A stretch of 35,837 bases of DNA, from assembly GCA_947594925.1 (NCBI GenBank), contig CANQEJ010000006.1, forward strand, positions 1 through 35,837. Direction: 5' to 3'. Positions 9,690 through 15,623 of the stretch are shown piece after piece. The stretch is from an uncultured Bacilli bacterium. Its GTDB lineage: Bacteria; Bacillota_I; Bacilli_A; RF39; UBA660. Below the pieces are notes generated by a model. It did no database searches, was not told the origin of the DNA, and saw only the letters and a list, made by a program, of their open reading frames with translations. The first letter of the stretch is position 1, and the number at the start of each line of letters is the position of its first letter. The translations under genes and the position numbers were made by a program.

Positions 9690-9915
9690 ATCGTTAAAAG
9701 CAAATGACAAAGACGTTAATATATTAAGTTTTAAGAGAACTGATGGTTGGTGCAAATCAGGAAATAAAATATATTAAAAATCACTTTGGATGCGTTATAT
9801 TGAAAATAGTAAATATAAACGGGTTACTTACGTTACAAGTATTAAGTGTATGATTAAAATCATAAATTAAGGTGGTACCACGGGTTTAACTCGTCCTTTA
9901 GTTTATGATTTTTTT
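9690..9915 (+). promoter_or_regulatory. T-box riboswitch (tRNA-Ile) controlling ileS
   Basis: The leader has the canonical T-box sequence AAGGTGGTACCACGG at 9869-9883. In stem I, TTAATATATT (9718-9727) pairs with AATATATTAA around an arm containing CTGATGGTTGGTGCAAATCAG. The specifier codon is ATC (9780-9782) in the context AAAA-ATC-ACTTTGGA, which is Ile and matches the downstream gene. The terminator arms are 9858-9872 and 9895-9910, followed by a T run; the T-box forms the competing antiterminator. Uncharged tRNA-Ile should therefore switch on ileS. This accounts for nearly all of the gap 9661-9941. Confidence 0.95.
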
Positions 9916-9941: not shown

Positions 9942-12900
9942 ATGAAAAATTTTAAAGAATTAGACAAAAGACCAGTTAGTGAAGTCGAAGAAAGTATTTT
10001 AGCTTCTTGGAAAAGTGTTAATGCCATGCATGATGAACAAGTGCGTATTCATGAAAAGGATAAAACATTTGTCTTTTATGATGGTCCAGCTTTTGCCAAT
10101 GGTTTTCCAGGTCTTCATCATATGGTTTCAAAAAACTTAAAAGATACAATAACTAAATATCATGTTATGAACGGTCATAAAGTTATTAGAAAAATTGGTT
10201 GGGATACGCATGGTCTGCCTATTGAAAATCATGTTGAGAAAAAATTAGGTATTTCTTCTAAAAAGGAAATAGAAGCTTTAGGGGTTGATAAATTTAACGA
10301 AGAGTGTCGTAAATCTGTCCGTGAAAATGAAAGTGCATTTTCTGATTTAACAAGTAAGATGGGACAATTTTTTGATATTGAACACCCTTATTTAACTTAT
10401 AAAAATGATTATATTGAAACCGAGTGGTGGATTTTAAAAGAAATGTTTGAAAAGGGTCTATTTTATGAAGGAACCCGTGTTGTTCCATATTGCCCGCATT
10501 GTGGAACAGGTTTGGCAACTCATGAAGTGGCTCAAAACTATCAAACAGATACTGCTATTACAGTTTATGTTCCATTTAAGAAAAAAGATGAAGATGTTTA
10601 CTTTTTAGTTTGGACAACAACACCTTGGACTTTAATTGCTAATGTAGCATTATGTGTTAATCCTGATGAAGAGTATGCTTTAGTAGAATCCAAAGAAACA
10701 AAATTCATTTTAGCTTCTAAACTTGTTTCTAAAGTTTTAGGAGATGAAGCCAAAGTACTAAAAACTTTTAAAGGTAAAACTTTAGAATACCAAGAATACG
10801 AACAATTAATTCCTTCTTTTGAGGTTGATAAAAAAGCGTTTTATGTAACTTGTGATGATTATGTAACTATGGAAGATGGTACAGGTATAGTTCATATTGC
10901 TCCGGCTTTTGGTGAAGATGATGCCAATGTTGGTAAAGCTTATGATTTACCATATTTAAATCCTGTCGGTAAAGATGGTTGTTATGTTGGAGGTTTATGG
11001 GATAAAAGGTTTGTCCATGATGTTAATGAAGAAATAGTTAATTATTTAAAAGAAAATGGTAAATTATTTAAACGTCAAAAACTTGCCCATGAATATCCAC
11101 ATTGCTGGCGTTGTGATACTCCTTTAATTTATTATTCAATGCCAAGTTATTATATTAAAGTATCTGAAATGCGTGATGATTTAGTAGCTTCTAATGCCAA
11201 AGTAAATTGGTATCCTTCTTATGTCGGAGAAAAAAGATTTGCTAATTGGTTAGCTAATGCTCGTGATTGGAACGTTTCGCGCAGTCGTTATTGGGGTAGT
11301 CCTATTCCTTACTTTAAATGTGAGTGCGGTCATGTGGAAATGATTGGTTCTGTTGCTGAATTAAAAGAAAAATCTATCGAAAAATTAGACGATAATCTAG
11401 ATTTACATAAACCTTATATCGATAATGTCTTCCTTAAATGTCCAAAATGTGGAGGCAAGATGACCCGTATTCCTGATGTTTTAGATTGTTGGTTTGATTC
11501 TGGTTCTATGCCATTTGCCCAATATCATTATCCTTTTGAAAATAAAGAATTATGGGAAAGTCAATTTCCAGCTGATTTCATTTGTGAAGGAATTGACCAA
11601 ACAAGAGGTTGGTTTTATACCTTAATGGTTATATCTACTTTTGTTAAAGGATGTTCTCCCTTTAAAAATGTTTTAGTTAACGATTTACTTTTAGATAGTG
11701 AAGGTAAAAAAATGAGTAAATCGCGTGGTAATATTGTAGAACCATTTACCACAATTAAAGAATATGGTGCGGATACGGTAAGATTTTATCTTCCTTATGT
11801 CTCTCCAGTATGGACCCCTTTAAAATTTGATATATCTGGTTTAAAAGAAGTTTATTCTAAATTCTTTAATCCTTTAAAAAACTCTTATAGTTTCTTTGCT
11901 ACTTATGCTAATATTGATAAAATAGATACCGATAAATGTAATGTTCCTTATGAAAAAAGAGAAGAAATAGATAAATGGTTATTATCTAAATATAATAAAC
12001 TAGTCAAAAATGTTCGCGCATCTTTTGATGAATATGATTTAAATAAAGCGGTCCATTACTTAGCCTTATTTGTTTCTGAAGATTTATCTAATTGGTATAT
12101 AAGACGTAATCGTAATCGTTTCTGGGGTAGTGAGTTTAATGAAAATAAAAAGAGTGTATATATTACCACTTATGAAGTATTAGTTGGTCTTTCTAAGTTA
12201 ATTGCTCCTTTTACACCATTTATATCTGAAGAATTATATCGTAACTTAACTAATGAAAAATCAGTACACTTAAGCACCTATCCGCAAGTTAATGAAAAAT
12301 TAATAAATCCGGAAATTGAAGAAAAAATGGATTTAGTTCGTGAACTAATTAGTATTGGACGTATGGCAAGAGAAGAAGCTAAAATTAAAGTTCGTCAACC
12401 AATTAGTGAAGTTATCTTAGATGGTAAACATGAAAGTATTTTAAAAGATTTAGTTAATTTAATTAAAGAAGAATTAAATGTTAAAGAAGTTATCTTTGAA
12501 AGTGACTTATCTAAATATATGAACTTTACTATAAAACCTAACTTTAAAGTAGCTGGACCAATTTTTGGTGGTAATATTAAAGAATTTGCTAATGTTTTAA
12601 ATAACTATAAGGAAGAAGATATTAAAAACTTACAAAATGGTCAAAAAGTCTCTTTAAAAATTGGTGATAATGAATATGATATAACTTTAGACTTAGTTGA
12701 TATTCGTATTAATTCTAAAGAAGGTTTTGATGTTGGTATGCAAAATAATAACTTTATTATCTTAAATACTAACTTAACTAAAGAATTAATTGAAGAGGGT
12801 ATTGCTAGAGAATTTGTTTCTAAAATTCAAAACTTACGTAAAACCAAAGAATTTGATATTGAAAATCGTATTTCTACCCAATTTAATGCTAGTCCGGAAA

Positions 12901-13040
12901 TTAAAGAAGCTATTTTAAATAATCTAGATTATATTAAAGGGGAAACTTTATCAACTACATTAGAATTTGTAGATAAGACCTGTGCTGAAGAAATTGATAT
13001 TAATGGTAATAAGGCTAGTGTAACAATTGAGAAAATGTAA
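9942..13040 (+). CDS. ileS: Isoleucyl-tRNA synthetase, type-2-like, with GLHH in place of HIGH
   Basis: A 1032-residue class Ia synthetase that charges tRNA-Ile. The N-terminal YDGPAFANGFPGLHH segment and the overall pattern (WDTHGLPIENHVEKKLG) match the eukaryote-like type 2 IleRS. The HIGH signature is replaced by Gly57-Leu58-His59-His60, so its first and third positions are swapped. KMSKS is intact (about 590-594). The CP1 editing domain is present (WTTTPWTL; EDGTGIVHIAPAFGEDD), as are CxxC pairs (CPHCG, CPKCG), the WFDSGSMPF motif and a full anticodon-binding and C-terminal region. Expression is under the T-box. The gap to the next gene is 11 bases, so at least one more gene is likely co-transcribed. 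Confidence 0.97.
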   Translation: MKNFKELDKRPVSEVEESILASWKSVNAMHDEQVRIHEKDKTFVFYDGPAFANGFPGLHHMVSKNLKDTITKYHVMNGHKVIRKIGWDTHGLPIENHVEKKLGISSKKEIEALGVDKFNEECRKSVRENESAFSDLTSKMGQFFDIEHPYLTYKNDYIETEWWILKEMFEKGLFYEGTRVVPYCPHCGTGLATHEVAQNYQTDTAITVYVPFKKKDEDVYFLVWTTTPWTLIANVALCVNPDEEYALVESKETKFILASKLVSKVLGDEAKVLKTFKGKTLEYQEYEQLIPSFEVDKKAFYVTCDDYVTMEDGTGIVHIAPAFGEDDANVGKAYDLPYLNPVGKDGCYVGGLWDKRFVHDVNEEIVNYLKENGKLFKRQKLAHEYPHCWRCDTPLIYYSMPSYYIKVSEMRDDLVASNAKVNWYPSYVGEKRFANWLANARDWNVSRSRYWGSPIPYFKCECGHVEMIGSVAELKEKSIEKLDDNLDLHKPYIDNVFLKCPKCGGKMTRIPDVLDCWFDSGSMPFAQYHYPFENKELWESQFPADFICEGIDQTRGWFYTLMVISTFVKGCSPFKNVLVNDLLLDSEGKKMSKSRGNIVEPFTTIKEYGADTVRFYLPYVSPVWTPLKFDISGLKEVYSKFFNPLKNSYSFFATYANIDKIDTDKCNVPYEKREEIDKWLLSKYNKLVKNVRASFDEYDLNKAVHYLALFVSEDLSNWYIRRNRNRFWGSEFNENKKSVYITTYEVLVGLSKLIAPFTPFISEELYRNLTNEKSVHLSTYPQVNEKLINPEIEEKMDLVRELISIGRMAREEAKIKVRQPISEVILDGKHESILKDLVNLIKEELNVKEVIFESDLSKYMNFTIKPNFKVAGPIFGGNIKEFANVLNNYKEEDIKNLQNGQKVSLKIGDNEYDITLDLVDIRINSKEGFDVGMQNNNFIILNTNLTKELIEEGIAREFVSKIQNLRKTKEFDIENRISTQFNASPEIKEAILNNLDYIKGETLSTTLEFVDKTCAEEIDINGNKASVTIEKM

Positions 13041-13051
13041 GGAGAACGCTT

Positions 13052-14266
13052 ATGTTAGAGGGTTTTAGTTATTCTAGATTGCATAATAACTGCAATGAAG
13101 AAAATTATGGTTATCTTGCTAAACTAATAGAAGAATACTTAAAATCTATTGGGCAAGAAAAATATAAAAGATTAGCTATTCGTCTTTTAAAAATTGATAT
13201 TTATAAAAAAGAAGAACGTTACTATCGTTATTATAATTTTCTAGAAAGAATAAATGAAAAAGATAGTTTTGACTTTTTAGTTAATAAATATAAAAAGAAA
13301 TTTTATGCTAAAAGAGTAAATCATGAAGAAAAATATGCTAATCTATGCTTAGATGTTTTATTAGAACTAGCTAATTTAGGCTATATTAACTTTAATGAAA
13401 TTAAACATCTAAAAGAATATAATGACCATATTGAAGAACTTAAAAAGGAAATGGCTTATGCTAAAGATATAAAAAAAAGTTTAAATAATATGCCTTGTGT
13501 TTTAACTAGAGAGTTAAATCCCCAAAGGGTTGAATTATTAAAACAATGTCTTTTAGAAGAAGAGGCTTTATCTGTTTTTCCAATTACAACTGAATTAGGA
13601 CCAAGACTAGTAGTAAGAAATCTAACCTCAATGTATCTTGATATGGCAGCTTTAAACCAAAATGCTAAAAAAGCTAGAGCCAATAATGATTATAAAAAAG
13701 CTTTAGATAATTATTTTCAAATACTAACAGCAACCGGAGTATTACATTATGTTACTTATGCTGATATAGGTTCAATATATTTAAAAATGAAAAATCCAAA
13801 ACAAGCTATCCAATATTTTACTATTGCTGTTTATCATCCTGATAATCAAAAAAGAGAATTTCAAAAACAATTAGATTTTCTTTTAAACAGTGAAGATATA
13901 GAGTATGAAAGAAAACCGCAACCTAAAGTAAAAGAAACAGAATTCCTAAATTATGATACTTTAACGGCCCGTTATGGTAAAATTATTGACCTACTTATAA
14001 AGGAAAATATGAGTTTAACTGCTGCTAGTCAAAGGTTTAGTTTAAATAATAAAGATATTTTAAAAGTTAAAATATTAATTGCCAGAATCTATTTTGCTAA
14101 TGGTTTTGCCGATTATGCAATTAAAATGTTAAAACAAGTAGAACAAGATATGGCTAATGATGCTAAAATCACGAAATTATTACAAACAACAAGAGCTAAT
14201 AAAAATTTATATAAAAATAAAGAAGAATATCAAAAAGGATTACGTTTAAGTTTATGGAAAGATTAA
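13052..14266 (+). CDS. TPR-like hypothetical protein
   Basis: A 404-residue soluble, mostly helical protein. Residues about 200-270 look like TPR units (KKARANNDYKKALDNYFQIL; YADIGSIYLKMKNPKQAIQYF), and about 340-385 carries another helical pair (ARIYFANGFADYAIKML). The middle has a conserved-looking segment (FPITTELGPRLVVRNLTSMYLD). No catalytic motif is seen; a scaffold or interaction role is an inference from the TPRs. An AAGGAG site (13039-13044) overlaps the ileS stop. Its end overlaps the next gene by 13 bases. Confidence 0.75.
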   Translation: MLEGFSYSRLHNNCNEENYGYLAKLIEEYLKSIGQEKYKRLAIRLLKIDIYKKEERYYRYYNFLERINEKDSFDFLVNKYKKKFYAKRVNHEEKYANLCLDVLLELANLGYINFNEIKHLKEYNDHIEELKKEMAYAKDIKKSLNNMPCVLTRELNPQRVELLKQCLLEEEALSVFPITTELGPRLVVRNLTSMYLDMAALNQNAKKARANNDYKKALDNYFQILTATGVLHYVTYADIGSIYLKMKNPKQAIQYFTIAVYHPDNQKREFQKQLDFLLNSEDIEYERKPQPKVKETEFLNYDTLTARYGKIIDLLIKENMSLTAASQRFSLNNKDILKVKILIARIYFANGFADYAIKMLKQVEQDMANDAKITKLLQTTRANKNLYKNKEEYQKGLRLSLWKD

Positions 14267-14739
14267 TCCATCCTTTAAAACCCATTTATGATGAAGAATC
14301 TAAAATCTTAATTTTAGGTTCTTTTCCTTCGGTTTATTCTCGTCAAAATAATTTTTATTACGCTCATCCCCAAAATCGTTTTTGGAACATGTTAGAAAAT
14401 ATTTTTGCTGATAAAATAGATGATAAAATAAAATTTTTACAAAGGCATCATTTAGCTTTATGGGACGTAATTGCTTCTTGTGAAATTATTGGTTCTTCAG
14501 ATGCTAGTATTAAAAATGTCGAAGTAAATGATATTCCTAAATTATTAAAAGAAACAAATATTACAAAAATATTATTAAATGGCCAAAAAGCTTATAATTT
14601 ATATTGTAAATATTTAAAAGATAAGATAGCTATTGAAGCTATTTGTATGCCCTCAACATCTCCTGCAAATGCAACATATTCTTTAGATGATTTAATTAAA
14701 ATATATAAATTGCAAATAAATAATATTGACAAAAAGTAA
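14254..14739 (+). CDS. Hypoxanthine (deoxyinosine) DNA glycosylase, UDG superfamily family 6
   Basis: A 161-residue protein with the motifs of the HDG family of uracil-DNA-glycosylase-like enzymes: LILGSFPS near the N-terminus, YYAHPQNRFW around 38-47, LLNGQKAY and the C-terminal PSTSPAN motif. Family members remove deaminated adenine (hypoxanthine) from DNA in base excision repair, and some lack uracil activity. Length matches. It overlaps the TPR gene by 13 bases and is likely translationally coupled. The last codons contain the -35 box of the downstream RNA gene. Confidence 0.88.
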   Translation: MERLIHPLKPIYDEESKILILGSFPSVYSRQNNFYYAHPQNRFWNMLENIFADKIDDKIKFLQRHHLALWDVIASCEIIGSSDASIKNVEVNDIPKLLKETNITKILLNGQKAYNLYCKYLKDKIAIEAICMPSTSPANATYSLDDLIKIYKLQINNIDKK

Positions 14740-14754
14740 ATATAATTGTAATAT
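14726..14754 (+). promoter_or_regulatory. Consensus promoter of the 36-nt repeat RNA
   Basis: TTGACA (14726-14731), exactly 17 bp, then TAATAT (14749-14754). Predicted start is near 14761, immediately before the repeats. The -35 lies inside the end of the glycosylase gene. Confidence 0.75.
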
Positions 14755-14772
14755 GAAGATGAATTAAAAGTC

Positions 14773-14880
14773 GGAATTTCCTTGCCAAAGTAGGAAGCTA
14801 AAAAAGTTGGAATTTCCTTGCCAAAGTAGGAAGTTAAAAAAGTTGGAATTTCCTTGCCAGAGTAGGAAGCTAAAAAAGTA
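14773..14880 (+). repeat. Three tandem 36-bp direct repeats
   Basis: The copies are 14773-14808, 14809-14844 and 14845-14880. Copy 2 differs from copy 1 by one base (C to T) and copy 3 from copy 1 by two (A to G in the loop, T to A at the end). A degenerate partial copy (AAAAGTC) precedes them. There are no spacers. Confidence 0.97.
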
Positions 14881-14908
14881 ACTAGAGAAGACTAACTCTA
14901 GTTTTTTT
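14881..14908 (+). terminator. Intrinsic terminator of the repeat RNA
   Basis: ACTAGAG (14881-14887) pairs with CTCTAGT (14896-14902), followed by seven T. Confidence 0.92.
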
Positions 14909-14921
14909 ATAAATGCTATAG

Positions 14922-14950
14922 TTGACAAAACGTAAAATGATTATTATCAT
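14922..14950 (+). promoter_or_regulatory. Distal promoter of ysxC
   Basis: TTGACA (14922-14927), 17 bp, TATCAT (14945-14950). It would give ysxC a leader of about 75 bases. Confidence 0.55.
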
Positions 14951-14976
14951 AAATATAAATAAACATTTTTTGTTAT

Positions 14977-15005
14977 TTGCAATTTGTTGAAATATTTAAT
15001 ATAAT
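14977..15005 (+). promoter_or_regulatory. Proximal promoter of ysxC
   Basis: TTGCAA (14977-14982), 17 bp, TATAAT (15000-15005), with the AGGTGA ribosome site following closely. Confidence 0.65.
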
Positions 15006-15029
15006 GTATTATACGTAGGTGATTTTTAT

Positions 15030-15623
15030 ATGAAAATTGAAACTGCTGAATTAAGTACTACTGCTGTACGAGTAAGTCAGTATCCCACTGATAATAAATG
15101 TGAATTTTTGTTAGTAGGGCGCAGTAATGTTGGTAAAAGTAGTTTTATCAATGCTTTAATTAATCGCAAGAACTATGCGCGAACTAGTGCTAAACCGGGA
15201 AAAACTCAAACTCTAAATTTTTATTTAGTCAATGATACTTTTTATTTAGTTGATGTTCCTGGTTATGGTTTTGCTTCTGTTAGTAAAGAAAAACAAAAAA
15301 AGTTTGGTTTAATGATAGAAGAATACTTAAAAACAAGAGAAAATTTAAAACAGGTATTTATGTTAATTGACTATCGTCATAAACCTACTGAAGATGATTA
15401 TTTAATGTATAATTATTTAAAATATTATAATGTTCCTGTTACAATAATAGCTACTAAATATGATAAAGTAAATAAAACAGCACGTCCTAAACAAGATAAA
15501 CTTATAACTGAACTCATGAATTTAAAAGATGATGATAAATTAATTTTCTTCTCAGCTATAAGCAAAAAGGGCCGTGATGAAGTATATAAAATCATCGATA
15601 CATTTATTGAAGAAAGTGTCTAA
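15030..15623 (+). CDS. ysxC: Ribosome biogenesis GTPase YsxC/EngB
   Basis: A 197-residue TrmE-Era-type GTPase of normal family length. G motifs: GRSNVGKS (30-37), a threonine-containing switch (TSAKPGKTQ), DVPG (75-78), TKYD (142-145) and SAI (175-177). YsxC works in late 50S subunit assembly and is essential in B. subtilis. It is a stand-alone gene with two promoters. It occupies the place where a type III toxin gene would be expected after the repeat RNA, but it is clearly a GTPase. The terminator stem overlaps its stop codon. Confidence 0.96.
   Translation: MKIETAELSTTAVRVSQYPTDNKCEFLLVGRSNVGKSSFINALINRKNYARTSAKPGKTQTLNFYLVNDTFYLVDVPGYGFASVSKEKQKKFGLMIEEYLKTRENLKQVFMLIDYRHKPTEDDYLMYNYLKYYNVPVTIIATKYDKVNKTARPKQDKLITELMNLKDDDKLIFFSAISKKGRDEVYKIIDTFIEESV

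Follow-up and report, generated by a model that had tools for sequence, protein, structure and literature searches.

A ToxI-Type Antitoxin RNA Array Upstream of ysxC in an Uncultured Gut Bacilli Genome, Probably Orphaned by Loss of toxN

RESULTS AND DISCUSSION

A tandem array of 36-nt repeats directly precedes ysxC in the 35,837-nt stretch of DNA analyzed here (the window). From sequence comparison, we assign a probability of about 0.88 to its being a ToxI-type (type III) antitoxin RNA whose neighboring toxN gene has been lost, leaving it an orphan. This assignment is made because homologous arrays at the ysxC site in congeners directly precede ToxN genes that are either intact (PF13958) or broken, and the window has the same locus without toxN. 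Tandem units of about 34 to 37 nt, a promoter and a terminator, and homology to arrays directly preceding toxN are all found, as in ToxI; what would make it a complete ToxIN system, a ToxN gene 3′ of the terminator, is absent, and the next gene is ysxC. An earlier note on this DNA had suggested an orphan type III antitoxin, and the congener loci bear this out. They also lend support, as a series of states at one site, to the suggestion that the array is a relic. The note's alternative of a different RNA family can be rejected on the basis of homology to toxN-linked arrays.

Layout of the array and its flanks

The array (positions 14770 to 14877, plus strand) outscores every other tandem repeat in the window by a wide margin (TRF score, 207), with a period of 36, 3.2 copies, 94% matches, and no indels. 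The three nearly identical repeats described previously are thus confirmed, at 14770 to 14805, 14806 to 14841, and 14842 to 14877. The promoter-like sequence TTGACA-17-TAATAT is also present (14726 to 14754, plus strand; 10 of 12 matches), although such sites are no more common around the array than in shuffled sequence. Its −35 element lies inside the 3′ end of a uracil-DNA glycosylase (UDG) superfamily gene (14254 to 14739, plus strand), which is the left neighbor here and in three congeners (G003, G004, and G005). TTGAC-type sites are found at the equivalent position in relatives, for example, G002.

Downstream, the array ends in a Rho-independent terminator, AACTAGAG...CTCTAGTT plus a T run (14880 to 14909, plus strand; hairpin at 14880 to 14903), of the same sequence type as those located before toxN in relatives. 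Where a strong terminator had been noted earlier, two terminator-like hairpins (the same hairpin, one per strand) were found, versus 0.2 expected. The ACTAGAG/CTCTAGT arms are conserved in the array alignment and shared with toxN-linked arrays. The interval that corresponds to the toxN site of relatives (14910 to 15029, plus strand) holds only the leader and promoter region of ysxC, and a search between the terminator and ysxC detected no ToxN remnant; neither did a six-frame search of the whole window yield a ToxN match. The conserved right-hand neighbor is the ysxC-type GTPase gene (15030 to 15623, plus strand; 197 amino acids [aa]).

A second promoter-like site, TTGACA-17-TATCAT (14922 to 14950; 11 of 12 matches), lies between the array terminator and ysxC. 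This site is similar to the array promoter; it could be left over from an earlier duplicate, or it could just be the promoter of ysxC. Elsewhere in the window, a canonical T-box leader (9695 to 9901; 122 bits) lies directly 5′ of a 1,032-aa open reading frame (9942 to 13040), which is the size of an aminoacyl-tRNA synthetase. Apart from the T-box, Rfam searches of the window at gathering and permissive thresholds gave only chance-level matches, and Rfam returned no matches for four toxN-linked arrays of relatives.

The array is predicted to yield an RNA of about 145 nt, initiated at its own promoter and ended at its own terminator, in which every 36-nt unit would fold into a ToxI pseudoknot. 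Should a cognate ToxN enter the cell, cleavage of the RNA at its A-rich junctions would be expected, and the units would trap the enzyme, much as they do in ToxIN.

The same locus in congeners

At the DNA level, a search of the window's own genome and 59 relatives (60 genomes in all) places the closest arrays at ysxC within the genus. In G002, an array 86% identical to that of the window is followed by an intact ToxN (158 aa) and then ysxC, and in G006 an array 85% identical lies after ysxC and before an intact ToxN (166 aa). These toxins match PF13958 at 139.9 and 135 bits, respectively, and the toxins of the sister loci match the solved ToxN/AbiQ structures 4ato, 2xd0, 7d8o, and 4glk. Two other congeners retain a single repeat between the UDG gene and ysxC; ToxN is frameshifted into pieces of 74 and 98 aa in G004 and is deleted down to 64 aa in G003. 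G005 resembles the window in having the array and then ysxC, with no ToxN between them. With intact toxins in two genomes, broken toxins in two, and none in one, these loci amount to a decay series within a single chromosomal neighborhood. Dating the loss of toxN by a ysxC tree gave a star-like topology (third positions about 60 to 65% identical; supports of 46 to 55); the genus is too divergent for shared and independent losses in the window lineage and G005 to be told apart.

Four of the array-bearing congener genomes are rabbit gut metagenome assemblies of uncultured Bacilli. An exact-pattern search of genome contigs likewise matched only rabbit gut metagenome-assembled genomes of uncultured Bacilli, and the same kind of search of viral contigs gave zero matches.

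The pseudoknot of the repeat unit

An alignment of 31 distinct repeats from toxN-linked arrays of the family reveals two helices: the 5′ strand of S2 lies between the two strands of S1, and the 3′ strand of S2 is downstream. These repeats covary, with 19 double-change cells versus 3.8 ± 1.6 when shuffled, and when the partner is shifted by one to three columns, the fraction of paired cells and the covariation score both fall. S2 is UUCCU/AGGAA in all three copies of the window (14778 to 14782 with 14792 to 14796, 14814 to 14818 with 14828 to 14832, and 14850 to 14854 with 14864 to 14868) versus CCCU/AGGG in toxin-bearing relatives. Two S2 pairs in the window group are changed on both sides, from C-G to U-A, and the stem holds as the earlier note had drawn it in copy 1. 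S1 is UUGG/CCAA in copy 2 (14807 to 14810 with 14821 to 14824), UUGG/CCAG with one G-U pair in copy 3 (14843 to 14846 with 14857 to 14860), and GG/CC alone in copy 1, which has the variant UCGG. It is short in the window group as a whole (GG/CC core), with 63.6% of cells paired.

The other helix proposed earlier, between CCAA (14785 to 14788) and UUGG of the next copy (14807 to 14810), has its positions right but not its pairing across copies. In arrays of relatives, 104 of 105 pairs of the equivalent stem form within the copy, whereas pairing to the next copy gives 58 of 69, so the inter-copy version was rejected and S1 is to be redrawn within the copy, with S2 left as it was. On sequence, each unit can form an H-type pseudoknot, with a weak S1 (GG/CC) in copy 1, and each also retains the A-rich junction. 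Thermodynamic folding did not place the array above shuffles (z = −0.81), which is expected because the program cannot represent pseudoknots.

Arrays across the family

The search of relatives by covariance that had been suggested as a check used a model covering the terminator and the two repeats before it, run on 291 family genomes with arrays counted at E ≤ 5e−7. It found 83 arrays, 50 with an intact ToxN, 15 with an interrupted or partial one, and 18 with none; this count is contingent on the model, whose training set consisted of such arrays, those of the window and G005 among them. Two of the 18 toxin-less arrays are at contig ends, leaving 16 with enough sequence to judge. For 14 toxin-less arrays, a second search using a profile made from ToxN proteins of the family itself gave no significant match. 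The window array, which was among the building sequences, scores 78.5 bits against this model of ToxI array plus terminator, and arrays of a single repeat are still detected (48.8 bits in G004 and 45.9 bits in G330). ToxN occurs in 58 of an equal-size draw of 291 genomes from the same family.

Family-wide, the terminator downstream of ToxI arrays has a conserved sequence (ACTAGAG...CTCTAGT or ATTAGAG...CTCTAAT), even where the repeats differ (L024 to L051 and L116 to L135), and this conservation appears to go beyond what termination requires. Two toxin-less arrays (L124 and L127) have an unrelated, longer hairpin in its place. Another toxin-less array, L126 (G128:C36:8400-11000), has at least four copies of a unit, GGAGAACCCAAGCCAAAGUGGGAAUUAAAAAAG, that is nearer to the ysxC-type repeat of the window than to the common type of the family. 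At an orthologous ToxIN locus in G334 and G320 (L136/L140), the toxin is intact in one species and frameshifted in the other, which is another snapshot of toxin-first decay. The arrays of G012 were not shared by the five other species of its genus that were searched.

Other readings of the repeats

The window array could instead be a second antitoxin that cross-neutralizes a resident toxin. A ToxN search of the rest of the genome, as the earlier note had advised, gave one match (contig C11; 165.8 bits), and the two arrays share a genome, their general knot, and an A-rich junction. However, the C11 ToxN already has its own three-copy 36-nt array, CGGUGUACCCAGCC..., which differs from that of the window; it is only 46 to 48% identical to the ysxC-type ToxN of G002 and G006; and G002 carries both lineages, each with a separate array. 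Because characterized ToxI RNAs do not cross-inhibit (PMC5086642), the C11 toxin is an unlikely partner, and we regard cross-neutralization as very improbable. No toxN of the window array's lineage was found in this draft genome, which is 89% complete, such that a matching toxN could sit in the missing part. Two readings outside type III systems are less probable still. The two GGA motifs per copy had suggested a protein-sponge RNA (CsrA-like) or some other unrelated repeat RNA, but these motifs are the paired S1 and S2 strands, not exposed loops, of the covarying knot common to toxN-linked arrays, and the array matches no Rfam family, Csr/Rsm included; the sponge is left without support, and we consider this reading highly implausible. 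A coding tandem repeat is the least credible of all. The unit is open in one plus-strand frame, LEFPCQSRKLKK, and a TTG-initiated 24-aa open reading frame spans copies 2 and 3, but it has no ATG start, and homologous copies of 35 or 37 nt in G002, G005, and G006 break the frame.

The C11 ToxIN (G000:C11:24758-28225) is complete and of another lineage than the ysxC type. The product of the gene directly upstream of it presumably resembles the C terminus of valyl-tRNA synthetase; in G007, a similar gene end directly precedes ysxC.

Constraint or erosion after toxin loss

Given an orphaned ToxI array, the window array would be a remnant that is slowly eroding but could still neutralize a cognate ToxN, or else a sequence kept as an antidote. 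The latter, in which selection maintains it against ToxIN circulating in the family (as anti-addiction or as a counter to ToxIN-carrying mobile elements), is possible but doubtful. In its favor, ToxN is carried by a fifth of the genomes drawn, and the knots of toxin-less arrays are as intact as those of toxin-bearing arrays (43 of 44 versus 61 of 61 copies complete; mean scores of 18.8 versus 18.5), whereas the mean score falls to 16.6 when intact copies are mutated at random by 5% and to 11.5 on shuffling. Among 25 repeats from toxin-less loci, 93% of cells are paired, with 33 double-change cells versus 10.0 in shuffles. However, part of this covariation must predate toxin loss, and detection by covariance model is biased toward intact arrays.

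Two toxin-less loci in genus g156 are orthologous across species. For the locus shared by G328 and G166, array plus terminator are 95% identical (96 of 101), versus 42% (56 of 133) and 69% (66 of 96) at fourfold sites of the flanking genes and 40 of 55 positions in the spacer 3′ of the terminator. The locus shared by G329, G166, and G330, beside what we take to be a thiI-like gene, keeps a last repeat identical at 31 to 33 of 34 to 35 positions, but copy numbers are 1, 2, and 3 among the three species and two of three terminators are eroded. The toxin losses in these ortholog groups could also have been independent and recent. Altogether, there is evidence in these sequences that some solitary arrays are constrained and that others are eroding.

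The window array itself is accelerated relative to toxin-bearing arrays: it differs by 10 to 11% from those of G002 and G006, which differ from each other by 4%, although this is far below the divergence at third codon positions of ysxC (about 35 to 40%). It thus shows relaxed yet pairing-preserving change, and given the faster divergence, activity against today's ToxN proteins would not be guaranteed. Most likely, it is at present a partnerless, slowly eroding remnant with latent antitoxin capacity. We offer only tentatively the broader idea that this gut Bacilli family maintains solitary ToxI arrays as a class of chromosomal RNA antidotes, kept under selection after toxN loss. If so, lineages losing toxN would keep the RNA as protection against the circulating ToxIN elements of relatives.

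Comparison with known systems

In one bacterial family, about one-fifth of the arrays detected are toxin-less, with the knot intact in nearly all and two of them common to related species. Type III systems therefore cannot be cataloged from toxin genes alone, and whether such arrays are relics or antidotes can be put to a direct test using a small RNA and defined toxins. In the searchable literature, outside which most subscription papers lie, no description of orphan type III RNA antitoxins on a chromosome came to light.

The window array is like the ToxI of known ToxIN systems (Pectobacterium, Bacillus thuringiensis, lactococcal AbiQ/antiQ, and Escherichia coli) in its units (34 to 37 nt there), about three copies, a knot per unit, its own promoter, and a Rho-independent terminator, a likeness of plan drawn without base-by-base comparison to characterized ToxI RNAs. 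Unlike in those systems, there is no toxin gene, and ysxC comes next. The pseudo-ToxI of phage Phi-TE also consists of toxin-less ToxI-like repeats, which suppress ToxN when expanded (PMC3475682). However, it is phage borne and evolved as a counter-defense, whereas the window array is chromosomal, lies in a housekeeping neighborhood, and was probably left by toxin loss. Among protein systems, orphan antitoxins are familiar and often suspected of acting in anti-addiction. Those of types II and IV persist after toxin loss, and a relic state or anti-addiction has been proposed for them (Klebsiella survey, PMC7192599; review, PMC7354431); those are proteins, whereas the window array is a type III RNA. 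It is of an ordinary kind, a ToxI RNA, in an unusual state, with the toxin lost and the knot kept.
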